From the NCBI RefSeq assembly GCF_001895925.1, contig NZ_MPPI01000010.1:1-64000 (forward strand): a stretch of DNA of 64,000 bases. Direction: 5' to 3'. A program made the translations under genes and the position numbers. This stretch comes from Phormidesmis priestleyi ULC007. Its GTDB lineage: Bacteria > Cyanobacteriota > Cyanobacteriia > Leptolyngbyales > Leptolyngbyaceae. Positions 1 through 24,405 of this stretch are shown in pieces; the first letter of the stretch is position 1, and each line of letters begins with the position of its first letter. The notes beneath the pieces were generated by a model that saw nothing but the letters and a program-made list of their open reading frames with translations, ran no database searches and was not told the DNA's origin.

Positions 1-39
1 TAACAATTGAGCGCTCATACTCACCCCTCTTGGTTGCAT
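1..39 (-). CDS. start of an unidentified gene cut by the window edge
   Basis: Only the first codons are visible, read leftwards off the window. ATG at 18 (MSAQLL) has a purine-rich GAGGGG just upstream. An in-frame ATG at 39 is the alternative start. The gene begins about 14-35 bases after the pyruvate:ferredoxin oxidoreductase stop, so it is probably in the same operon. Because that neighbour lacks its TPP and FeS parts, this gene could supply them, but the visible residues cannot show it. Confidence 0.3.
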   Translation of the reverse strand, partial: MQPRGVSMSAQLL

Positions 40-52
40 CACTGAGGTAATA

Positions 53-1810
53 TCATGATTGAATGATTAAATCAAGTAGAGGTCGCACCCCCATCACAGT
101 GTTGATGTGCCCACCCATGCCATTGTTGTGGGCAACTTTATTGGCATTAATAATGTAAAACTTCAGATGTTGCTCAACGATTTGCTGCTGCATGGGTTGG
201 GGTAGATGTTCCCACACTTCCTCAGTGTTGTACGGAGTATTCAACAAGAAGGTTCCACCTGCAACAACATGCTGAAGCATATCAAACCGTTCCAGGAATG
301 CTGACTGGTGACAGGCGACAAAGTTTGCACAACTAATCAGATAGGATGAGCGAATCGGTTGTGAGCCAAACCGTAGGTGAGAAATGGTAACGGAACCTGA
401 TTTTTTGGAGTCATAAACAAAGTATCCCTGAGCGTAGTTGTCCGTTTCTTCACCAATGATCTTAATTGAGTTTTTGTTAGCTCCAACTGTGCCGTCCGAA
501 CCCAGTCCGTAAAAGATAGCGCGAATGACCTTATCTGATTCGATCGAAAATCCTGAATCATAGTCCAGGCTAGTGTGGGTGACATCATCATTGATTCCCA
601 CTGTGAAATGGTTTTTTGGACTAGCGGCTGTCAGATGATCAAATACACCTTTGATCATCGCAGGTGTAAATTCTTTGGAAGATAGTCCGTAGCGACCGCC
701 GATAATTAATTTTGAGTTTTGAGCTTTGAGTGTTGAATTTGTTTCATAAATAGCGTTGACCACATCCAGGTATAACGGTTCGCCTGTGCTACCGGGTTCT
801 TTAGTGCGATCGAGAACAGCGATCGCCTTCACACTCTCAGGCAACACCTCAACAAATCGTTTGACATCAAAGGGACGATACAGCCGCACTTTCACCACAC
901 CGACTTTTTCACCACGGGCATTCAGGTAATCAACCGTTTCATGAACTGCTTCGCAACCCGACCCCATCAACACAATTACCCGTTCGGCATCGGGTACACC
1001 GTGATAATCAAACAGGTGATAGGATCTCCCCGTTAATTGCCCTAATTGCTCCATCGCAGTTTGCACGATGTCTGGACAATCTGCGTAGTATGAATTGACC
1101 GTTTCCCGTGCCTGAAAATAGACATCTGGATTTTGGGCTGTTCCTCGCAGGACGGGATGATCAGGAGACAGTGCCCGCGATCGATGCGCGTGAATCAAAT
1201 CTTCATCAATCAGCGATCTCAAATCCTCCTGCTCTAACAACTCGATTTTTGCAATTTCATGAGACGTGCGGAAGCCATCAAAAAAGTGCAGGAAGGGAAT
1301 TCTGGATCGCAGCGTGGCGGCTTGAGCAATCAGAGCAAAATCTTGCGCCTCTTGCACAGAAGCAGAGCAAAGCATAGCAAACCCAGTAGCACGAACCGCC
1401 ATCACATCACTATGGTCGCCAAAGATAGAAAGTGCCTGTGCTGCCAGCGATCGCGCTGCCACATGAAACACGGTCGGGGTGAGTTCTCCGGCAATCTTGT
1501 ACATATTTGGGATCATCAGCAACAATCCCTGGGATGCAGTGAAGGTTGTCGTCAATGCACCCGTCTGCAAGGCTCCGTGAATGGTTCCAGCAACCCCTGC
1601 TTCGCTCTGCATTTCAACCACAGCAGGAATAGTGCCCCAGAGGTTTGGCTTGTTCTCAGAAGCCCAGACATCTGCCCCTTCAGCCATTGGCGTAGAAGGC
1701 GTGATGGGATAAATAGCTATCACTTCATTCAGTTGATAGGCAACTTGAGCAACGGCTTCGTTAGCATCAATGGTTGCAACAGTTCTCAGCTTAGAATTTG
1801 CCATAACCAT
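53..1810 (-). CDS. nifJ: pyruvate:ferredoxin (flavodoxin) oxidoreductase, N-terminal portion only
   Basis: This is the front half of a NifJ-type enzyme, which oxidises pyruvate with CoA to acetyl-CoA, CO2 and reduced ferredoxin. The 585 residues cover the PorA pyrimidine-binding domain (YPITPSTPMAE near residue 35), the central domain II, and the gamma domain (GSDGTVGANKNSIKII near 440, ending GMGGHINTVM near 565). A usual NifJ has about 1200 residues and continues with an EKR segment, two 4Fe-4S clusters and the C-terminal TPP domain. All of these are absent. After INTVM the protein diverges and stops within 12 residues, and no other frame restores the family sequence. The start at 1810 (or the internal ATG at 1804) lies 25-31 bases below the shared promoter element. 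It could be a genuinely split enzyme or a truncated one. Confidence 0.85.
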   Translation of the reverse strand: MVMANSKLRTVATIDANEAVAQVAYQLNEVIAIYPITPSTPMAEGADVWASENKPNLWGTIPAVVEMQSEAGVAGTIHGALQTGALTTTFTASQGLLLMIPNMYKIAGELTPTVFHVAARSLAAQALSIFGDHSDVMAVRATGFAMLCSASVQEAQDFALIAQAATLRSRIPFLHFFDGFRTSHEIAKIELLEQEDLRSLIDEDLIHAHRSRALSPDHPVLRGTAQNPDVYFQARETVNSYYADCPDIVQTAMEQLGQLTGRSYHLFDYHGVPDAERVIVLMGSGCEAVHETVDYLNARGEKVGVVKVRLYRPFDVKRFVEVLPESVKAIAVLDRTKEPGSTGEPLYLDVVNAIYETNSTLKAQNSKLIIGGRYGLSSKEFTPAMIKGVFDHLTAASPKNHFTVGINDDVTHTSLDYDSGFSIESDKVIRAIFYGLGSDGTVGANKNSIKIIGEETDNYAQGYFVYDSKKSGSVTISHLRFGSQPIRSSYLISCANFVACHQSAFLERFDMLQHVVAGGTFLLNTPYNTEEVWEHLPQPMQQQIVEQHLKFYIINANKVAHNNGMGGHINTVMGVRPLLDLIIQS

Positions 1811-3013: not shown

Positions 3014-3244
3014 TCAGGTCTGAATTTGCTCTAAGTACCTCAATGTTCGTTCTGCTTCTTGAGGGTCAAGAATACTGAGGGCAAAGCCCACATGGACGAT
3101 CGCATAATCATCGATTTTTGCTTCAGGCACATAGGCAAGACTGACTTCTTTAATTACGCCTCCAAAGCTGACTCTACCAGTCCGCAGCAATGGATCGTCC
3201 TGATTGTGGATGCCGATAATTTTTCCTGGAACTGCTAAACACAT
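3014..3244 (-). CDS. hypC: hydrogenase maturation chaperone HypC
   Basis: A 76-residue HypC/HupF-family protein with the diagnostic N-terminal MCLAVPGK, whose Cys2 binds the iron centre. HypC carries the Fe(CN)2CO group with HypD and delivers it to the large subunit HoxH. Its start overlaps the end of hypF by 10 bases, so the two are translationally coupled. It is the last gene of the hoxW-hypA-ligase-hypF-hypC run. Partners HypB, HypD and HypE are not in this window and must be encoded elsewhere. Confidence 0.95.
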   Translation of the reverse strand: MCLAVPGKIIGIHNQDDPLLRTGRVSFGGVIKEVSLAYVPEAKIDDYAIVHVGFALSILDPQEAERTLRYLEQIQT

Positions 3245-5565
3245 CGTTCTTTACCTCCTGAAATTTCCCGTAGCGCTGCCATGATTTGACCCAATGCAAT
3301 GCCGCCATCGTTGGCTGGAATCTTCTGGTGCCAGTAGGGTCGAAATCCTTCTGCTCTCAATCGTTGAATGGCGCGTTCGGTTAGATATTTGTTTTGAAAA
3401 CAGCCGCCTGTAAGAACGACTCGCTCTTCTCCAACTCGGTTCGCGATCGCTACTATCATCTCAACCAGTGTGTTATGAAACTTGGCTGAGATATTGCTGA
3501 TCGATAGACCTGATCGACTATCAATTAAGATTCTCCGTACCATCGCTGCCCAATCTAAGATCTCCGACTTCTTTGGAGAAGTCGGAGATCTGGTTGATTG
3601 AATTTCAAATGGATAGGATTCATCGGTTTCAAAGCCCTCGATCGCAAACTCTAATTCCATCGCTGCCTGCCCTTCAAATTGGATGTATTGACGCAATCCG
3701 AGGATTGAAGCGATCGCATCAAACAAGCGTCCGGCACTGGATGTAATTGGAGCATTGAGATTCTTGTTCAGCATAGTTTTCAAGATTTTTAATTCTTGAT
3801 CTGAGAATGTTTGTATAGAGTCAAGTGCCTTCATCTCAAACACCTGATCACCATACAGCTCGTAAAGCAATCCGATCGCCGATCGCCTCGGTTCTTTAAC
3901 GGCTTTATCTCCTCCAGGCAGATGGAACGAACGCAGGTGAGCAACCCGCCTAAAGGTCGTATCGGTGATGTGCAGAAATTCACCACCCCAGAGAGTGCCA
4001 TCCGATCCGTAGCCTGTGCCATCCCAGGCAATGCCTAAAACGGAACCCTCAAGCTGATGCTCTGCCATACAGGAGAGGATATGAGCGTAGTGATGTTGAA
4101 CGGGGATAACCGGAATCTGCAATTGATTAGCAAGTTGATGAGCGAACTGTGTAGAGCGATAATCGGGATGTAAATCGCAGGCGATCGCAGTCGGTTGCAG
4201 TTCATAGATCTGTTGAAAACTAGCGATCGTTTGTTGAAACGCCTCAAATGCCGGAACTGTCTCCAAATCGCCAATGTGCTGACTGACAAAGACCTGCTGA
4301 TTGGTTGAAAAGGCGATCGTATTCTTTAAATGTGCGCCAACGGACAGGATTTTGGATTTTGAATGAATTGAAATCGGCAACGGCGCATAGCCCCGCGCAC
4401 GACGCAATACCACTTTCTGTTCCATCACCACTCGAACAATGGAATCATCAATTGGACGGGCGATCTCACGATTATGAATAAGAAACAAATCAGCAATGGT
4501 TCCGAGCCGTTGGATGGCTTCCTGTTCATCGGTGCAAATGGGTTCATCGGCAAGATTGCCACTGGTTGCCACAATAGGAAAACCCACATCAGCCATCAGT
4601 AGGTGATGTAAGGGCGTGTAGGGCAACATGATGCCTAGATACGGATTGTGGGGGGCAACAGATGGGGCAATTTTAGCGTTGAGAGTTTGGGTTTTGGAGT
4701 GTTTTAAGAGAACAATCGGAGCTTCGGGCGATCGCAACAACTGTTCTTCTAACTCTGAGACTTCGCAATCAGCCTTGATTAACTCCAGGGAAGGATACAT
4801 CAATGCAAAGGGTTTAGCGGCTCGTTGTTTTGCTTGCCGCAATCGCTGAATTGCTGTCTCATTACGAGCATCAACCATTAAATGAAATCCACCCAAGCCT
4901 TTGATCGCCACAATCTTGCCCTGGCGAATTGCATCTGCTGCTATCTTCAAAGCATTGTCGTGAGACGCGATTTCACCGGATGGATTCCACAATTGTAGAT
5001 GAGGTCCGCACTGCGGACAGGCATTGGGCTGGGCATGAAACCGCCGATCGCCAGGATTTCCGTACTCTATTTGACAATCTCTGCACACTTTGAAGTACTG
5101 CATCGTTGTGTTAGAGCGATCGTAGGGAAGCGCGTCAAGGATGCTGAAGCGAGGACCACAATTCGTACAGTTGGTGAAGGGATAGCGATAGCGGCGATTT
5201 GTAGGGTCAAAGATCTCCTGAAGGCACTCTGGACAAGTGGCGATGTCGGGCAGAACAATAGCTGTTTTCTCACCCACAACACTTTTGCGAATTTCAAAAA
5301 TAGAATAACCAACTGGATCAAACCATGAGGATTCTAAACTTTGAATGTGCGATCGCGATGGTTTTTCTTGATTAAGTCGGTGCAGAAATGTATCGAGCTG
5401 CGATCTCACTCCTTCAATGTCAATCACGACACCTTGAGCAGAATTATTGACCCAACCCGTTAACCCTAAATCAGCCGCTAACCGATAGATAAAGGGACGA
5501 AAGCCGACCCCTTGAACAGCTCCCTGAATCACGAGATGTAATCGTTGCTGGAATACAATATTCAT
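3235..5565 (-). CDS. hypF: carbamoyltransferase HypF
   Basis: HypF makes the cyanide ligands of the NiFe active site from carbamoyl phosphate, passing the carbamoyl group to HypE. The 776 residues have the usual order: an acylphosphatase domain ([14 protein letters not shown] near residue 15), two C4 zinc fingers (CPECL/CTNCGPR and CRDCQ/CPQCGP), a YrdC-like domain, and a C-terminal Kae1-like domain with the histidine motif QHHYAHI. The start overlaps the preceding ligase stop by 4 bases. Oddity: a 34-bp perfect palindrome is inserted in frame in the C-terminal part, encoding [11 protein letters not shown]. Its length and all motifs are otherwise intact, so activity is probably kept. Confidence 0.95.
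3558..3591. repeat. perfect palindrome inside hypF
   Basis: AGATCTCCGACTTC, a 6-base loop TTTGGA, then its exact complement GAAGTCGGAGATCT. The 14-bp stem lies in the hypF reading frame without breaking it. It looks like a mobile palindromic repeat that landed in a tolerant surface loop. Confidence 0.8.
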
Positions 5566-8366
5566 CGTGTGATTTGTTGTACCTCAATCGTTGCTTGCAT
5601 CACGCCTGCTTCGATCGATCGCAGGCTAAATCCTAACTTTTCACAGACTCGCTGCATCGCAGAATTATCAGCCAGAATTTCGGCATGAATGTGTTCTAGC
5701 TGTTCATCCTGACCCACTTGGAGCAAACGTTTCAGCAGTTCTGTGCCTAATCCCTGACACTGGTAGCGATCGCTGACCAGGAGCGCAAATTCTGCCTCAT
5801 TGGTGCCGTGCAGTTTGCTGAGTCGGGCAACTGCCAGAATTTCATGCGCTTCGGTATCTGGATGAGTATAGTCAGCCACCAACGCCATCTCGCGATCGTA
5901 ATCAATAAAACAGAGTCGCGTCAGGCGATCGTGAGCCGTGCGTTGACTGAGTTTAATCAGATGAAAATAGCGAAAATAAACGCTTTGTTCAGACAGTGTT
6001 TTGTGGAACTGAATCATCAGCGGTTCATCTTCAGGACGAATGGGACGAATGGTGAGGAAGGTGCCATCCTTCATTGTCCAAGCAGAAAGGTATTGCGTGG
6101 GATAAGGGCGAATTGCCAGCCTGGGTAACTGATCCAGGTGAATATCCAGTCCATGCAAAACGATGCGAGCATCCAGAGCGATGAATGGAGCCGACTCCTG
6201 GCTTCTGGCTAGTAAGGGATTGATATCAATTTCTTTGATCCACCGTTGCTCGACGACAAGTTGACTGAAGCGCACCAATAGTTGCTCTAATGCGGCTAAA
6301 TCAACTGCTGGTCGTCCGCGAACGCCTTTGAGTGCCCGATAGATGTGGGTTTGTTCCATCATCCGTCGCGCCAGTGTGGTGTTGAGTGGCGGTAGAGCGA
6401 TCGCCCGGTCTTCAAACACTTCTACCAGTTGTCCACCCGATCCAAACAACACGACAGGTCCCAACTGATCATCCAGACTGCTACCCATGATCAGTTCATA
6501 GCCGTCGAGTTTAACCATTGGCTGAACGGTAACGCCAATGAAGGAGGCGGGATCAGCAACAACAGCCGCTTCAATGTTTTGATATGCTTTTCTAACAGCA
6601 TCAGCATCGGCAAGATTCAACTTCACGCCACCCACATCTGATTTGTGGGTGATGGTTTGTGAGAGCAATTTCAGCACAACCGGATAGCCGATCGCATCTG
6701 CACAATGCACTGCATCCTCTTCACTCTGGGCAACACAGGTTTGAACGACAGGAATGCCGTAAGCATGGAGAATTTGTTTAGATTCGGCTTCGGTTAGTAG
6801 GGTGCGATCGGCTTGACGAGCGGTTTGGATGATGGTTTCTACCAAGGGGCGACCCCTTGCGGGTATCTCGAAGAGATCGGGAATTTCTGCATCTAATCCA
6901 GCTAATGTAGGCGTTTCGTAGATGCCTCGCAGGTTATAGCTGTAGCGCCACATGTCGCTGAACACTCGTGCGGCTGCATCGGGATAGGCATAGGTGGGAA
7001 TGCCAGCCTGGTTGAGAATTGCCTCCCCTGCTGCCACATCGGCTCCGCCCATCCAACTTGCCAAGATCGGTTTATGTTTTAGAGATGCTGTAGAGGTTTG
7101 TGTAGTTTCGACATAGGCTTTCAACTGCTCGGCTGTTTGTGTAGGATCGGTCATCGCTTGCGGCGTGAGAATGGTCAACAAGCCATCACTGTTGGGATCT
7201 TGAGCAGCAATTTCCAGTGCTTTTGCATAGCGCTGTGGATCAGCGTCACCGAGAATATCGATCGGGTTGTCATGACTCCAGTGTGTGGGCAGGACTTGAT
7301 TCAAGTGGGCGATCGCTTCCTCCGATAGTTCCGCCAGTTCTCCGCCAGCAGCAATCAGCGCATCAGTAGCGAGTACGCCTGGACCTCCGGCATTGGTCAA
7401 AATCGTTAAGCGCGATCCTTGCGGACGGGGTTGTTTTGCCAGCACTTCTGCCCTATCAAACAAGTCAGAAATGGTGTCAACTCGCAGAACCCCACAGCGA
7501 TGGAAGGCAGCATCCAGCACCCCATCACTCCCCGCTAAAGCTCCGGTGTGGGACGTGGCGGCTTTGGCAGCGGCGGTAGTGCGACCTGCCTTCAGCACAA
7601 TAATCGGTTTGGTGAGGGCAACTTCCCGCGCTGCGGAGAGAAACGAACGGGCATTGGCGATCGACTCCATGTAAATCACGATGCTGTGGGTGTGCGGATC
7701 GTCGCCCAAATAATCGATCAAATCACCCCAGCCCACATCCAGCATGGAACCCACTGACACAAACGCACTGAAGCCCACATTCTCCCGCAAACTCCAGTCT
7801 AAAATGGCGGTACACAGTGCCCCACTCTGGCTAATAAAGCCCACATTGCCAGGACGCGCCATTGCTCCTGCAAAGGTGGCATTCAAACCCGTAAGTGGAT
7901 TCATCACGCCCAGACAATTTGGACCAATAATGCGTAAATTACCCCGCCGTGCCCGTTCCAAAATTTGCGCTTCTAATGCCGCCCCCGTTGCCCCCGATTC
8001 CTTGAATCCCGCCGAGATGATGATCGCGCCTTTGACCTTTGCTTCTACGCATTCCGTAATCACATCAGGAACGCCGGGAGCAGGCACAACTACGATCGCC
8101 AGATCAACGGGTTCAGGAATGCTGCTAACGGTGGGATATGCCTGAATCCCCAGCACACTATGTCTCTTAGGATTGACTGGAAATACTGTGCCACCAAAAG
8201 TGTGGCTGATCAGATTCCAGAGCACTGTTCGCCCGACACTGCCAACCCGATCGGTCGCCCCAATCACCGCCACACTTTTTGGTGCAAAGATGGCTTTTAG
8301 AGGTTGATGCTCAGTCCGCAAGATATCGTAGGCTTTGTCCATCGCTGACTTAAATGTTTCGGGCAT
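5562..8366 (-). CDS. ADP-forming acyl-CoA ligase fused to a GNAT acetyltransferase
   Basis: A 934-residue fusion. Order: CoA-binding Rossmann domain ([14 protein letters not shown] near 33), succinyl-CoA-ligase-like flavodoxin domains including SHTGALAGS near 268 (its histidine sits where the phospho-histidine of ADP-forming acetyl-CoA synthetases lies), an ATP-grasp domain (about 490-720), and a C-terminal GNAT domain from about 780 with QCQGLG. The family includes ADP-forming acetyl-CoA synthetases (acetyl-CoA to acetate plus ATP) and Pat/PatZ protein acetyltransferases. ATG at 8366 follows AGGAGGGG. It is 9 bases from hypA and overlaps hypF by 4 bases, so it is embedded in the hydrogenase maturation operon. 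With pyruvate oxidation nearby, I infer acetate formation with ATP gain, but an acetyltransferase-only role is possible. Confidence 0.85.
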
Positions 8367-8375
8367 CACCCCTCC

Positions 8376-9304: not shown

Positions 9305-10759
9305 TTAATCTCGCCAGGTTTCGTTGAGCAGCGTGCCATCAGCACCAACCAGTTGAACATGGAGCGGCATCTGCCCAGCAGCGTGGGTGGAGCAACTGAG
9401 GCAGGGGTCAAAAGCGCGAATTCCGGCTTCCACTCGGTTTAGCATTCCTTCCGGGATATCAGAACCGTGGATGAAATGGCGGGCGATCTGCGCCACAGTT
9501 CGGTTCATTGCCAGGTTGTTTTGTCCGGTGGCAATCACTAGATTCACTTTCTGCATTAGCCCGTTTTCGTCTACCTGATAGTGATGAAATAACGTACCGC
9601 GTGGGGCTTCGCTGACTCCCACACCTGACCGTTGATTAATGCCTGCATCGGCTCTTAAATGCGTTGAGAGTAAGTCTGGATCATCGATCGTTTGTTCAAT
9701 TTTCTCGATCGCGCCCAAAATCTCAATCAAACGGGCGTAGTGGTAGAAGAATGAAGATGTAACGGTGCCATGACCGCGATCGCGAAATTCCCGCAGTTCT
9801 TGATCCGCTAGGGGTGTCCCAATCTGGGTGCAAATATTTAGCCGTGCCAGGGGGCCTACGCGATAGATACCGCTGTCTAGCCGACAGTGATCGTTCTGGT
9901 CGGGGTAGCCCAAGGGACGGTAGTAGGGGGATTTCAAGTAGGAATCCGATTCCACCGCTTCGCCAATAAATTCCTGGTAGCGAGCGGGATCGAGGCGGTC
10001 AGCGACAATGTTTCCGGCACTATCGACAAAGCGAAGATAACCGTCGTAATGCTCCCATAAGCCATCGGGTGTGACCAATCCCATAAACAGAGAGGGAAAA
10101 TTGCCAAAGGTTTGGGCTTCGCGTTCGTGAGTCTGAAGCAATTGCTTAAATTGTTCTAGAGCATTCAGGGCAGTGGTGCGGACTTCTGGAATGCGATCGC
10201 GGATATGAGTCCGTCCCTCTTCAGACAAGGGTTCTCGCACTCCACCAGGAACCGCCCAAGCGGGATGAATTTTGCGTCCCCCTAATTGTTCAATAATCTC
10301 TTGTCCAAACTGACGGAGGCGAATGCCGCCCCGTGCTAAATCAGGGTTAGCCGCCATTAACCCAAAGATATTGCGCGTTTGGGGATCACTTTCCATGCCC
10401 AGCAACAAATCGGGTGCGCTGAGGTGAAAGAAGCTGAGGGCATGGGACTGGATGATTTGTGCCAAATTCATTAAGCGGCGTAGCTTGACCGCTGCGGGGG
10501 GAATCGTGACTGCCAGAATGCGATCGCCCGCCTTAGCCGATGCCAGCAGGTGGCTAACGGGACAAATGCCACAAATCCGCGCTGTAATGCCTGGCATTTC
10601 CCACAGCGGTCGTCCCTCACAAAACTTTTCAAATCCGCGAAATTCTGTGACATGAAAGCGGGCATCGGTGACTTGCCCGACATCATCCAGGTAAATTGTA
10701 ATTTTGGCGTGTCCTTCAATCCGCGTCACCGGATCAATCACAATTCGCTGAGACATCAA
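9305..10759 (-). CDS. hoxH: bidirectional NiFe hydrogenase large subunit HoxH
   Basis: HoxH is the catalytic subunit that evolves or oxidises H2. The 484 residues keep both nickel-binding motifs: [10 protein letters not shown] near 61 and DPCLSCSTH near 451. The 25 residues after that histidine ([10 protein letters not shown]...) are the extension removed by HoxW, so the gene encodes the unprocessed form. The hoxY stop lies 9 bases upstream. It is the last gene of the usp-hox unit. Confidence 0.97.
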
Positions 10760-10768
10760 TCCTCCTCC

Positions 10769-11311
10769 TTAGCCGAATTTGATTTGTTGTCCTTCTAGAT
10801 GAGGCATATTGCCTGTTAATAGCGGTTCCAGGGCAGCTCGAATCCGATCGGCGGGCGGTGGACAACCAGGCAGGTAAACATCGACCGGAACAACAGTATG
10901 AACAGGCGTGACCCGATCGAGCAAAGGCGGCACAATTCCCGGCTCAGTGGGAATCTGAGCATGAAGATCAGCCGCTTCGATGTAGCATCGTTGCAGTACA
11001 GGTTCAGCACTGCCAAGGGAGTTGCGGAGAGCCGTGACGTTGCCAGTCACCGCACAATCGCCAAAGGAAATCAGCAACCGCGATCGTGCTCTGACTTTGC
11101 GAATCATGTCGAGGTGATCTTCGTTGGCGATCGCCCCTTCCACCAGCACTATATCCACACCTTCTGGATACTCTTTAACATCCATAAACGGGCTATAAAC
11201 GAAGTCAACTTGGGCTGCCAAATCAAACAGCCATTCGTCCAAATCCAGAAAGGACATATGGCAACCGGAACAGCCACCTAGCCAAACGGTTGCGAATTTT
11301 ATCCGTGCCAT
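10769..11311 (-). CDS. hoxY: bidirectional hydrogenase small subunit HoxY
   Basis: A 180-residue small subunit carrying the proximal 4Fe-4S cluster, with GGCSGCH at 12-18, a central Cys in SFGDCAVTGN and YLPGCPP near 148. It passes electrons between HoxH and the HoxEFU diaphorase. It lacks the Tat signal and the extra clusters of uptake hydrogenase small subunits, consistent with a cytoplasmic enzyme. Confidence 0.96.
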   Translation of the reverse strand: MARIKFATVWLGGCSGCHMSFLDLDEWLFDLAAQVDFVYSPFMDVKEYPEGVDIVLVEGAIANEDHLDMIRKVRARSRLLISFGDCAVTGNVTALRNSLGSAEPVLQRCYIEAADLHAQIPTEPGIVPPLLDRVTPVHTVVPVDVYLPGCPPPADRIRAALEPLLTGNMPHLEGQQIKFG

Positions 11312-11356
11312 ATTTCCCTCCAGTTATCCTTGTGCAACAACTTCTTGCTGCTTCTA

Positions 11357-11530
11357 CTAAATGAAGTGAGTAGCCTGGAGCAAAAATATGTCCAGAGCTT
11401 CCTTGATTTGGTTCACCATTGCAATGGCTGGTTGAGGCAGGAGAGCGGCTTCTGCAATCAAGAGGAATAATGCAAAAATGAACCATAAAATAATCCACAG
11501 ATAAGTTTCGGGAAAATGCGGTCGTAACAT
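11357..11530 (-). CDS. small single-pass membrane protein between hoxU and hoxY
   Basis: A 57-residue protein with one strong membrane segment (about residues 10-30, rich in W, I, L and F) and a short amphipathic C-terminal helix. ATG at 11530 is preceded by AGAGGT, and I prefer it to an upstream in-frame codon at 11557 that would overlap hoxU. It has no Cys, so it is not an electron carrier. I do not recognise a family. Its place inside the operon suggests a role in membrane association or assembly of the Hox complex (inference). Confidence 0.6.
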   Translation of the reverse strand: MLRPHFPETYLWIILWFIFALFLLIAEAALLPQPAIAMVNQIKEALDIFLLQATHFI

Positions 11531-11550
11531 ATTAACTACCTCTTTTAGGA

Positions 11551-12261
11551 CTACCATTGTTGTTTTTGACGAGCTGTTGCAATAAATTCAATCCGGGCGC
11601 GATCGTGCACCATTTCACCCACACTGGAACCTTGATGAAAAATTGCCCCTGTGGGACAAGCTTCAACACATTTGCCGCAAGATGTACAGGTTTGAGACGT
11701 GCCCCAGGGTTGATTGAGATCTGTAATCACATGGGATTGAGAACCCCGACCCGCCATATCCCAGGTATGTACGCCTTCCAGTTCATCACAAACGCGAACA
11801 CAGCGAGTACACAATACACAGCGATTGTGATCCATGCCAAAGCGATCGTGGGAAAGATCCACTTGGCGATCAGGAAATTGATACTCCAGTCGCACATGAT
11901 CCATTCCCATTTCGATCGCTAAATCTTGCAGTTCACAATTTCCATTGGCAACACACACAGAACAAACATGATTGCCCTCTGCAAACAACATTTCAACAAT
12001 TATGCGGCGATAATTTTGCAAGCGATCGGTGTTGGTTTGAATCTCCATGCCCTCTGCCACTTTAGTGACACAGGCAGGTTGAAGTTTAGAACTACCCGCA
12101 ACCTCAACCAGGCAAAGCCGACACGCCCCCACCTCAGAAACCCCCTCCAAATAGCACAGCGTAGGAATGTGAATACCCGCTTCCCGTGCTGCATCCAGAA
12201 CGGTTTCTTCTTCACGGGCACTGACTAAGCGATCGTCGATCGTTAGGGTTTTGACAGCCAT
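11551..12261 (-). CDS. hoxU: bidirectional hydrogenase diaphorase subunit HoxU
   Basis: A 236-residue NuoG-N-terminal-like electron-transfer subunit. It has an N-terminal 2Fe-2S ferredoxin fold ([15 protein letters not shown] near 36), a His-Cys cluster region ([14 protein letters not shown] near 96), and two 4Fe-4S motifs, [11 protein letters not shown] near 147 and [11 protein letters not shown] near 191. It links HoxF to HoxY. Confidence 0.96.
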
Positions 12262-12333
12262 AAATTATTCCATTAAAGATGTAAGTTTCAGCAGATCAAA
12301 ATTGGAACTTCAAGGGGGTTTGACTTGAAAAAT

Positions 12334-12600
12334 CTATAGTGGTTCTTTTTTAGTAATTTTCTTCAACTCTAGTGCTCTGCACTTAGGACACACTCCGTCC
12401 AAAACTTCCGATTGGAAAAATAGTGTGTTGCATTTAACACATGACTGTGGTGGTATGATTTTTGTCTTTTGTGTTAGTGGTGGAGAAATTTTATTGTTTT
12501 TCTCCTCTCCTTCTCTGCACTCCGAACATATCCCACCCAACATTTGCCATGAGAGAAACTCTCTATAGCACTTTGTACACAACTGTGTTTCTCTCAACAT
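12334..12600 (-). CDS. double zinc-ribbon small protein between hoxF and hoxU
   Basis: An 88-residue protein with two similar halves: CTKC...CSEC (8-11 and 25-28) and CVKC...CPKC (54-57 and 71-74). Each ends in a glycine-Ile/Val-Cys pattern, as if arisen by duplication. A lysine-rich, AT-rich linker joins them. A strong AGGAGG precedes the ATG at 12600. It sits between hoxF (53 bases away) and hoxU (72 bases away), so it is co-transcribed. Its function is unknown. Two more zinc-ribbon proteins under the same promoter type lie at 2243 and 17022. Confidence 0.7.
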   Translation of the reverse strand: MLRETQLCTKCYREFLSWQMLGGICSECREGEEKNNKISPPLTQKTKIIPPQSCVKCNTLFFQSEVLDGVCPKCRALELKKITKKEPL

Positions 12601-12652
12601 CCTTTAAACCCTCCTACCTCAGAAAAGAAATAGACCTTAAAGCTGTCTCTCA

Positions 12653-14278
12653 TCACGGTTTATCAATCAATGTCCTATATTCATCCTCGAAGTGGCGCAA
12701 GGTGCTGAGAACTGGGTTTGGAGCAGACTGACCCAACCCACACAGGCTCGTGTGTTTTACCATATCGCACAGTTCCTTGAGCAATTCCATATCAACGTCA
12801 GTTGCTTGACCTTCTCGAATCTTTGTCAGCAATTGATGGAGTTGCATAGTGCCCACTCGACAGGGAATGCATTTGCCGCAAGACTCATCTCGGCAAAACT
12901 CCATAAAGTAATGCGCCACATCCACCATGCTAGTCGTCTGATCCATCACAATCATGCCACCCGACCCCATCATCGAGCCGAGCTGCGTCAACGATTCGTA
13001 GTCCACTGGCGTATCAAAGGCTGAGGCAGGAATGCAACCGCCAGAAGGTCCACCCGTTTGCACCGCTTTTGCTGACCCGCCATCGGGCACGCCGCCCCCC
13101 ATTTCCTCCACAATTTGCCGCAAAGACGTTCCCATCGGCACTTCAATCAGGCCCGTATTGCGAATTTTGCCTGCCAGCGCGAAAACTTTCGTGCCTTTGC
13201 TTTTTTCGGTGCCAATGCTGGCAAACCAATCGGCTCCGTGGCGGATAATGGGGGCAATATTAGCAAAGGTTTCGACATTGTTGATTAACGTGGGGAAGCC
13301 CCACAATCCCCGTTCGGCTGGATAGGGAGGACGCGGACTGGGAACGCCCCGCTTGCCTTCGATCGATGCCATCAGCGCCGTTTCTTCTCCGCAGACATAG
13401 GCTCCTGCGCCAATCCGAATATCAATCCGAAAGTCGAAGGGAGAATCGAACACCTGACTGCCTAAAAGTTTCAACCGTTGCGCCTGTCGAATGGCAATTT
13501 GCAAACGACTAATCGCTAAGGGATATTCAGCCCGGACGTAAATGTAACCTTGAGTAGACCCGATCGCATAAGCCGCGATCGCCATTCCTTCCAGCACCCG
13601 ATGCGGATCGCTTTCCAGCACACTGCGATCCATGAATGCCCCCGGATCACCCTCATCCGCATTGCAGATCACATATTTACGTTCTGCGGTTGCCTTTGCC
13701 ACCGTTGCCCATTTCAAACCTGTGGGATAACCACCTCCACCTCGACCCCTTAACCCACTGTGGGTAATCGCATTGATAACGTCTGTTGGCTTCATCTCAT
13801 ACAGGGTGTGGTAAAGCGCCTGATAGCCCTCAGCAGCGATGTAGGCTTCGATTCGTTCTGGGTCAATTTTGCCGCTGTTTTCCAGGACGATCGTCCGTTG
13901 CTGGGTAAAAAATGGCTGAGTGAGATCGCCCTGCTGGAGGGTCGTTGGTGTATTTGCAGGGGTTTGGGATTGAAGGGTTGCGACGATTGCAGAAACCTGA
14001 TCGGGAGCCACTTTTTCATACAGAATTTCAGAATGCTCCAGTTCTGCTGAAGTATCAATCTGAACCAGTGGACCTTGGCAGCACAACCGCATACACCCTA
14101 CACCAGAAACCTGCACGGTGTCTGTCAACCCTGCTTCTGTAACTGCCTGTTCCAACCCAGTTTTAACCGCCAGTGCATTAGAAGAGAGACAACCCGCCGC
14201 AACACAGCACCGAATTTGCAACGCTTTTTGAGATTGGCGTTCCTGTTCAGCAATTTCCAGTAGTTCAGAGAGATCCAT
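12653..14278 (-). CDS. hoxF: bidirectional hydrogenase diaphorase subunit HoxF
   Basis: A 541-residue NuoF-like NAD(P)H- and FMN-binding subunit. It has an N-terminal thioredoxin-like 2Fe-2S domain (CCVAAGC near 24, CMRLCCQG near 62), the NADH site [10 protein letters not shown] near 176, the FMN region [13 protein letters not shown] near 291, and a C-terminal 4Fe-4S motif [10 protein letters not shown] near 475. It oxidises or reduces pyridine nucleotide and passes electrons to HoxU. It starts 38 bases after hoxE. Confidence 0.97.
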
Positions 14279-14316
14279 AGTGATTGATTATTGCTGTGTG
14301 ATTGATTCCCTGTTCC

Positions 14317-14844
14317 CTATTGCTCTTTTCCCAAATATTCCTTCAGACGATCGCCAACCAACTCTGGTGTTTGATGACCACATACTGTTCCGTCAAACAC
14401 AACGGCAGGGGCAATCCCACAGGCTCCCAAACAGCGGGCAATTGAGAGAGAAAGCTGATTGTCCGCTGTCGTTTCACCTGCATGAATCTGGGCAGATTGC
14501 TCAACCGCTGCCAGCAATGCCGCTGCACCTTTGACATAGCAAGCAGTTCCCGTACACACTACACAGCGATGGATGCCTTTGGGTGCCAGAGAAAACAGAT
14601 GGTAAAACGTCGCCACGCCATAAACCCTACTGGGAGGTAGCTTCAGGCTATGAGCAACGTAAAGCAAAAGATCGTTTTCGAGATAGCCAAACAGTTCTTG
14701 CGCCTTGTGCAGGATTTCAATTAACGCATCTTGTTGATACTGATGCCGTTTCATCGTTGCGTCTAGTATCTGAAAACGCTTGTCTCCACTGGGATGCTTG
14801 AGTGAGACCCCTTTAGTACTTCTAATTTGCTGACGAGTGGTCAT
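14317..14844 (-). CDS. hoxE: bidirectional hydrogenase subunit HoxE
   Basis: A 175-residue NuoE-like subunit with a 2Fe-2S thioredoxin fold (CTGTACYVKG and CLGACG). It may connect the complex to ferredoxin or flavodoxin. I take the ATG at 14844 (MTTRQQIRS). A longer frame to 14958 would overlap usp by about 100 bases and adds a non-conserved leader. The usp stop is 13 bases upstream, so hoxE is not the first gene of its transcript. Confidence 0.94.
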   Translation of the reverse strand: MTTRQQIRSTKGVSLKHPSGDKRFQILDATMKRHQYQQDALIEILHKAQELFGYLENDLLLYVAHSLKLPPSRVYGVATFYHLFSLAPKGIHRCVVCTGTACYVKGAAALLAAVEQSAQIHAGETTADNQLSLSIARCLGACGIAPAVVFDGTVCGHQTPELVGDRLKEYLGKEQ

Positions 14845-14857
14845 GATCGGTAAGTGT

Positions 14858-15385
14858 CTACGACACCGCTGTAACTTGTTTGTCAGGAGTAACCTCCGAT
14901 GGCTCCCGAACTTGACCTTGCACGGTGAGAACCGAACAAGGAGCATGATGCAGCACATAGTTACTCACGCTGCCGAGCAAGAGTTCATTCAAGCCAGAAT
15001 GCCCCCGCCGACCGATCAGAATTAGATTAGCCTCCCGTGTGCGAGCAAATTCGCAGATGGTTCGACCCGGACTGCCAGAATTTTGGGTGAATTCAGCGCT
15101 TACGTCCGCAGCAGCGGCTTGCTCTACATAGGATCGCAGCATCTCCAAACCCCGATTTTCATAGTCTGCCCATTGCTTCTGGTGCATTTCCGAAATTTCG
15201 CCAGCGATCGTCGGGTAGTAGTCCAACCCAATCATAGAGACGTTGGGGCTGCCTTCCTCTTCACTAGACAAGACGTGCAATAGCATCAGACTAGAATTTG
15301 TTGCTTTTGCAAGATCAAGGGCTTGATCAAAAACCTGATGACTATGCTCGGAACGGTCGATCGCCACCAGAATTTTGTGAAACAT
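14858..15385 (-). CDS. universal stress protein heading the hox operon
   Basis: A 175-residue UspA-family protein. It starts KILVAIDRSEHS and carries the ATP-binding pattern G-x2-G-x9-G-S near residues 128-142 (GRRGHSGLNELLLGS). Such proteins are typically induced by stress or anoxia and bind ATP. It stops 13 bases before hoxE and has the shared promoter element 72 bases upstream, so it appears to be the first gene of the hydrogenase transcript. Confidence 0.88.
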   Translation of the reverse strand: MFHKILVAIDRSEHSHQVFDQALDLAKATNSSLMLLHVLSSEEEGSPNVSMIGLDYYPTIAGEISEMHQKQWADYENRGLEMLRSYVEQAAAADVSAEFTQNSGSPGRTICEFARTREANLILIGRRGHSGLNELLLGSVSNYVLHHAPCSVLTVQGQVREPSEVTPDKQVTAVS

Positions 15386-23240: not shown

Positions 23241-24405
23241 CATACTCCCCGGCGTGAACGCACGGGGATTCTAAGCTCAGACAGCAATTGCAGGCATAGC
23301 CTGTCTAACATCACCTAACTTAAGGGTCGATGCCCCAACCCTTTGAATATTTATCGCGGCGTTCTCATCTCGTCCGTTCACAGACTGACAAGACGGGCAA
23401 CGCCATTCTCTCACCGACAAATCCAACTCTTTCAAGACGTGCCCACAGTTTGAGCAAGTCTTAGAGGATGGATACCATCGGTCGATGAAGACAACTTGTT
23501 TACCTTTCTTTGTTGCCACCCATTCGAGAATTTTCAGAAATTCACCAAACGCGAGATCTGAAATTTTGCGTCCCCATAAACGCTGCATGCCTTTGAGGTT
23601 TAGCGTCTCAAAGCACAAAACATCGAATTGATTCGTTAAGTCGTGCGCCAACTTCCAGAACCAATCAGAGCGGTGGTTCACTACGTCCTCATGCTTGCGA
23701 ACCAAATTCAATCTTGCTCGTTCCCGATTCGATGAACCTTTCCGCTTTTTGGAATGATTGCGACTGGCTTTCTGGATGGCATTCAGCGATTGTTTGAGGA
23801 ATTGCGGCGATTCGATTTTTGTTCCATCTGAGGCGGTGAGGAACGTCTTTAAGCCAAAATCAAATCCAGCGATTCTACTCGTCTCGAATTTGGTTTCAGG
23901 CTCATCAACGCTGTCAACAACCACGACCATAAACAACTCCCCTAATGGAGTGCGTTTAATGGTCAGAGTTTTGACCGTGCCCTCAATTTCTCTAGAATTC
24001 CAGTATGGATAGACTCGATTCCCAATCTGGATGCGATCGCCGCTTAGAAACTTGTAGCCAGTTTGCTTGAGGGTGAAGGACTTATGTCGTCTCACTTTCT
24101 TGAAGTTGGGCGGTCTAACTCCTTTTTTGGGGTGTTTGAAAAACAGTTGATAGGCTTTCTCAATGCGTTGGCAGATATCCTGCACCGCTTGGGAGCCGAC
24201 TAGCTGCCAGAATTCTTTGCGCTGCCGCAGTTTGGCAATGTGAGCCTGAAGTTTCGCGCAGTTCAAGTGTTTGCCCCACATCCGGTAGTAGCGTTTGTGG
24301 AGAGCAATACAGTGGTTATAGATGACTCCAGCCGCATTAATTGAGCGCTTGAGAAATCGATTCCGCTTGTGATTGTACAACTTGAACTTCAAGGTTTTCA
24401 TGGGT
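23237..24405 (-). mobile_element. IS200/IS605-family element carrying only TnpB
   Basis: The right end, next to the cytochrome stop, is a hairpin at 23245-23267 (CCCCG...CGGGG with GCGT/ACGC inside), followed outward by GTATGTCAA. tnpB fills the rest. There is no TnpA transposase, so movement would need one in trans. The left end is taken as just upstream of tnpB and is approximate. Confidence 0.75.
23277..24401 (-). CDS. tnpB: RNA-guided nuclease TnpB
   Basis: 374 residues with the three RuvC parts: GFDFGLKTFLT (Asp) near 194, CFETLNLKGM (Glu) near 270, and NGRDENAAIN (Asp) near 345. A zinc finger (CSNCGHV...CPSC) lies between the last two. All catalytic residues are present and the frame is intact, so the nuclease could be active, guided by an omega RNA overlapping its 3' end and the right end of the element. 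Confidence 0.93.
   Translation of the reverse strand: MKTLKFKLYNHKRNRFLKRSINAAGVIYNHCIALHKRYYRMWGKHLNCAKLQAHIAKLRQRKEFWQLVGSQAVQDICQRIEKAYQLFFKHPKKGVRPPNFKKVRRHKSFTLKQTGYKFLSGDRIQIGNRVYPYWNSREIEGTVKTLTIKRTPLGELFMVVVVDSVDEPETKFETSRIAGFDFGLKTFLTASDGTKIESPQFLKQSLNAIQKASRNHSKKRKGSSNRERARLNLVRKHEDVVNHRSDWFWKLAHDLTNQFDVLCFETLNLKGMQRLWGRKISDLAFGEFLKILEWVATKKGKQVVFIDRWYPSSKTCSNCGHVLKELDLSVREWRCPSCQSVNGRDENAAINIQRVGASTLKLGDVRQAMPAIAV

Follow-up and report, generated by a model that had tools for sequence, protein, structure and literature searches.

Pyruvate:ferredoxin oxidoreductase (PFOR) of the NifJ type is a single chain that combines the alpha, domain II, gamma, FeS, and TPP domains and is described by the 1167-position NCBIfam model TIGR02176. 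In contrast, two-subunit oxoacid:ferredoxin oxidoreductases are encoded by conserved separate genes, with the split at a domain boundary. The other system that bears on this locus is the ISKra4 family of insertion sequences (p-MULT 4 group), and part of the text of PMC3942029 reports that several members insert upstream of sigma-A promoters.

We examined a stretch of 64,000 nucleotides from Phormidesmis priestleyi ULC007 ("the window"), in which nifJ lies at the contig edge. Judging from the sequence, this nifJ was almost certainly broken by the insertion of an ISKra4-family element, and is not a natural split enzyme. Unlike the family members that insert upstream of sigma-A promoters, this copy lies inside a coding region. 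Among the papers listed by a literature search on nifJ and insertion sequences in cyanobacteria, none is about this nifJ disruption, judging by the titles and the opening lines of the abstracts.

The two halves of nifJ

Position 1 of the window is also position 1 of contig C101 (188,523 bases), so the assembly has no sequence to the left of it, which is where the earlier note had suggested looking. As that note reported, a 585-codon open reading frame (53–1810, minus strand) covers PorA, domain II, and gamma and ends 12 residues past GMGGHINTVM; the nifJ part has no internal stops. The note had also stated that the protein ends after the gamma domain. A profile search found POR_N, PFOR_II, and positions 1–131 of 173 of the POR/gamma domain, so the reading frame breaks within gamma. 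The last 12 codons (GVRPLLDLIIQS) are not nifJ and derive from the junction and the insertion element. The front half matches positions 2–558 of TIGR02176 with 987.5 bits (cut-off 911.35).

Table 1. Features at the beginning of the window.
Feature	Position	Strand	Basis or remark
Left end of the ISKra4-family element, truncated at the contig end; terminal repeat GGGTGCGACC	1..90	-	Repeat matches within own genome
12 foreign codons and stop (GVRPLLDLIIQS, then stop), closing the chimeric ORF	53..91	-	
Upstream copy of 8-bp target duplication CTGTGATG	92..99	-	Second copy on G000:C44, adjoining the right end of the element
5' part of nifJ, 573 codons	92..1810	-	POR_N, PFOR_II, and most of the gamma domain; TIGR02176 match
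hypF, upstream neighbour of nifJ	3235..5565	-	TIGR00143, 885.9 bits (cut-off 466.1)
hox bidirectional hydrogenase cluster	9305..14958	-	HoxU and HoxE above NCBIfam cut-offs; HoxF, HoxY, and HoxH by order and weaker or domain matches

A search of the same genome with a TPP-domain profile identified a 672-codon open frame at the start of contig C44. This contig begins with the right end of the element, followed by CTGTGATG and then by the rest of nifJ, so the gene does have the continuation that had been thought missing. The piece on C44 contains EKR, 4Fe-4S, and TPP domains, and the iron-sulfur and TPP domains are what the earlier note had proposed to look for. It has no internal stops, occurs just once in the genome, and matches positions 559–1166 of TIGR02176. 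Its score of 868.3 bits is below the whole-protein cut-off, as the score of a half may be. The two halves thus abut at profile position 558/559, where the insertion sequence interrupts the gene, and together they cover 2–1166 of 1167 positions.

Descent from single-chain NifJ is indicated by both TIGR02176 matches and by the front half being 71–87% identical to six genes in long open frames, although here the element separates the domains into two pieces. In a wider scan of genome contigs, which kept 80 of at least 593 relatives, the best ones include several cyanobacteria at 74–76% identity, and the top match (76%) is from a contig labelled Gracilibacteria.

We found no second or full-length nifJ in this genome, using either the POR_N profile or the back half as the query. 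Besides C101 and its duplicate (contig C118), the POR_N search returned a frame on C103 at 21.2 bits, which is below the cut-off of 27 bits. We considered this frame as a second nifJ and rejected it: it carries the strongest match to TPP_enzyme_C, and we take it to be another thiamine enzyme.

C118 (27,409 bases) is identical to positions 1–24191 of the window and departs from it at the start of a TnpB/OrfB gene (23277–24401, minus strand). This could reflect duplication of the contig or structural variation at an IS605-type element, and C118 is not fully explained.

The element at the break

The reverse complement of window positions 1–130 has 13 matches in the genome, including C101 itself and C118. 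Seven other contigs (C102, C57, C10, C113, C90, C58, and C54) are 100% identical to it starting at query position 40 or 41 (window 1–90 or 1–91), and each of these matches is less than 400 bases away from the end of its contig. Another match, on C69, is an 82% identical relative of the element that is located inside a contig. The remaining three (two on C72 and one on C48) are just 24 bases long and belong to a related small element. Copies of the element begin with GGGTGCGACC, and the complement of GGGTGCGACC is found at the right ends, which gives inverted terminal repeats.

The relative on C69 is about 1.39 kb long, as estimated from its end positions, and encodes a protein of 434 amino acids that matches NF033572 (ISKra4 family transposase) at 227.3 bits (cut-off 205); a Pfam search with this protein found no match. 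In the copy on C54, which has the same left end as the window, the first 114 residues match NF033572 weakly (29.3 bits; being a fragment, it stays under the cut-off). Over 103 bases, the right end on C44 is 91% identical to the C69 copy, and it encodes the same transposase C-terminus. The copy inside nifJ is seen at its two ends; assuming the length of the C69 relative, it would measure about 1.39 kb. Features shared with the ISKra4 family (as described in part of PMC3942029) are the transposase of the C69 relative, the inverted terminal repeats, and target duplications of 8–9 bp.

The earlier note had also described a new gene that starts soon after the stop codon of the 585-residue frame. 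There is a start codon shortly after that stop, and in the C54 copy, the same frame is the start of the transposase, which runs in the direction of nifJ and whose MSAQLL stretch begins at window position 18. Because the gene of the C69 relative encodes an ISKra4 transposase and the start of the C54 copy weakly matches the same family, the "new gene" is the element's transposase. It is unrelated to PFOR, as one of the note's two arguments against a split enzyme would have it, while the other, a separate full-length nifJ elsewhere in the genome, was not borne out.

To look for target duplications, we compared 9 left ends with 9 exactly matching right ends, pairwise, and permitted a slip of one base on either side. 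Six of the 81 pairs share 8–9 bp: C101–C44, C118–C44, C113–C78 start, C58–C27, C10–C78 end, and C90–C55. Five of these are distinct, as C118 duplicates C101. The left ends are partly dependent, since C118 repeats C101 and since C57 and C102 have a common flank. Random flanks from the window share 8 bp or more at a rate of 0.000245 per pair, so about 0.02 such pairs are expected among 81. One further pair shares 5 bp (C28 appears in that pair only). No partner sharing at least 5 bp was found in this comparison for the left ends of C102, C57, and C54 or for the right ends of C66, C29, and C38. At the ends of the C69 relative, comparing the flanks by eye, a duplication was not evident.

If the element and one duplicate are omitted, then the flanks (60 bases on each side) align without gaps to the nifJ genes of relatives: 46 and 51 of 60 bases are identical in genome G033, 48 and 52 in G025, and 46 and 41 in G016.

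Several observations count against an insertion. There is one unmatched G at window position 91, between the left copy of CTGTGATG and the element; no duplication is evident around the C69 relative; some ends of the element lack partners; C118 is not fully explained; and the back half scores below the cut-off for the whole protein. Also, no single contig contains the join from C101 through the element to C44. We pair C101 with C44 on the basis of the duplication, the complementary domains, and the gene order. On C44, the FeS and TPP domains come after the element's right end, so they are probably located physically just off the window.

A 174-bp element with the same GGGTGCGACC terminal repeats was seen in three places (L027:8278–8451, L028:6075–6248, and L023:651–824). 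It is too short to contain a transposase gene and is perhaps a MITE that is mobilised by the ISKra4-type element.

Interruption, split enzyme, or artefact

The sequences of the two contigs show an insertion of the element into nifJ behind codon 573, with a target duplication of about 8 bp. The contig is broken at the element, with the front half of nifJ on C101 and on its duplicate and the back half on C44; the assembler presumably broke it there because the element is multicopy. The front half would yield a 585-residue chimera that lacks the FeS and TPP-binding domains, and the back half would be severed from nifJ's own promoter and start. PFOR is therefore most likely inactive in this strain. 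This agrees with the suggestion in the earlier note that the enzyme might be truncated; its other suggestion, a split enzyme with the beta part just off the window, was probably right about the location and wrong about the split, which relatives do not share.

Could the two pieces form a working enzyme? Both halves of nifJ are open and under constraint, and the frame on C44 remains open backwards into the element, with a GTG and an ATG within the duplicated target. These features are compatible with a lineage in which the alpha-gamma and delta-beta chains are made separately. But nifJ is in one open frame, of 1216–1265 codons, in all six of the other genomes from the family that have the gene. 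Also, the break is within gamma, where an insertion sequence sits between copies of a duplicated target, instead of being at a domain boundary between conserved separate genes. Simple consensus scans, which are weak evidence, found no promoter-like site for the back half in positions 1–400 of L024, and a terminator-like site on the plus strand at 115–127. So, we consider it very unlikely that a working two-chain PFOR is a trait of this lineage. Alternatively, the insertion itself might have created a two-chain PFOR, if the element drove transcription of the back half, with translation from the GTG or ATG in the duplicated target, and if the two chains assembled; we view this as extremely unlikely.

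The break coincides with a repeat, and the first 24,191 bases of the window recur in C118, which is what one might see if the element were absent from the real nifJ and the contig ends had been wrongly extended into a repeat. However, the element is joined to nifJ on both sides (C101 and C118 on the left, C44 on the right) with matching 8-bp duplicates, which would rarely result from a random misjoin, and such an artefact has only a very slim chance of being the explanation. Finally, GTGCGAC near the start of the repeat resembles the 5' ends of group II introns, and an intron that is spliced out would leave the protein whole. We dropped this idea, whose probability seems negligible, given the inverted terminal repeat and target duplication on C44 and the ISKra4 transposase in the relative.

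Interruption by an insertion sequence removes an apparent new split enzyme as a false lead: what remains is a transposon-interrupted gene at a contig edge.

Distribution in the family and the adjoining hydrogenase genes

We searched 42 genomes from the family, including this one, and found the front half of nifJ in 7 of them. We read the whole NifJ translation for G033 (1262 amino acids), whose gene is the closest to the front half (87% identity), and for G025 (1225 amino acids; 85% identity). Relative to G033, dN/dS is 0.079 for the front half and 0.073 for the back half; relative to G025, these values are 0.056 and 0.067. The two halves are similarly constrained, and neither shows decay. The insertion may thus have happened recently, or the product may still be of importance; the lack of decay would fit a recent insertion, without proving inactivity.

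Upstream of nifJ are a hypC-like ORF, hypF, an acyl-CoA-synthetase-like gene, hypA, an ORF for a putative hydrogenase protease (which has no family match), and the hox genes. The gene after nifJ on C44 is dihydroorotate-dehydrogenase-like (DHOD-like; NF005741). The combined order from the window and C44 is hypF, the hypC-like ORF, a zinc-ribbon ORF, nifJ, and the DHOD-like gene. In G033, the order is hypF-like, two other genes, nifJ, the DHOD-like gene, and then putative hypD and hypE (hypF-like, hypD, and hypE were read from the sequence). In G025, the DHOD-like gene follows nifJ, and there is no hypF upstream of nifJ within the stretch examined. The DHOD-like protein is found in the same 7 of 42 genomes as nifJ and in no others, although in G023 the two genes are on separate contigs.

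HoxH has matches in 10 of the 42 genomes, counting weak ones. G023 has nifJ and no match to HoxH, while G039 and G002 have strong matches to HoxH and none to nifJ. In G030, the only genome from the same genus, there were no matches to nifJ, HoxH, or the DHOD-like protein.

The hox and hyp reading frames beside nifJ are open, and the hox hydrogenase is the likely partner of the interrupted PFOR. If PFOR is inactive, then the hydrogenase would have lost its source of electrons from pyruvate to ferredoxin, as suggested by the physiology of Synechocystis. The likeliest consequence is that the enzyme was lost recently beside the hox hydrogenase cluster. This would be a modest snapshot of a probable loss of PFOR, in a family with patchy occurrence of the gene and with the hydrogenase genes still adjoining; if the loss is real, one would expect less hydrogen from fermentation.

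Three other observations concern this neighbourhood and its relatives. Within the hydrogenase maturation cluster, positions 5562–8369 of the window encode the acyl-CoA-synthetase-like protein (935 amino acids), whose synthetase part is below the NCBIfam cut-offs and whose C-terminal part is GNAT-like, as read from the sequence. G033 has a second, 43-residue start of nifJ on another contig (G033:C156; L120:3025–3452), directly beside a hypD-like fragment. This is possibly the scar of another loss of nifJ, as if the intervening stretch of G033:C36 had been deleted. In G002, the HoxH gene is divided between two contigs, with each piece close to a contig end (G002:C346:121–873, which has an internal TGA, and G002:C33:133–678), and this is possibly another interrupted hydrogenase gene.
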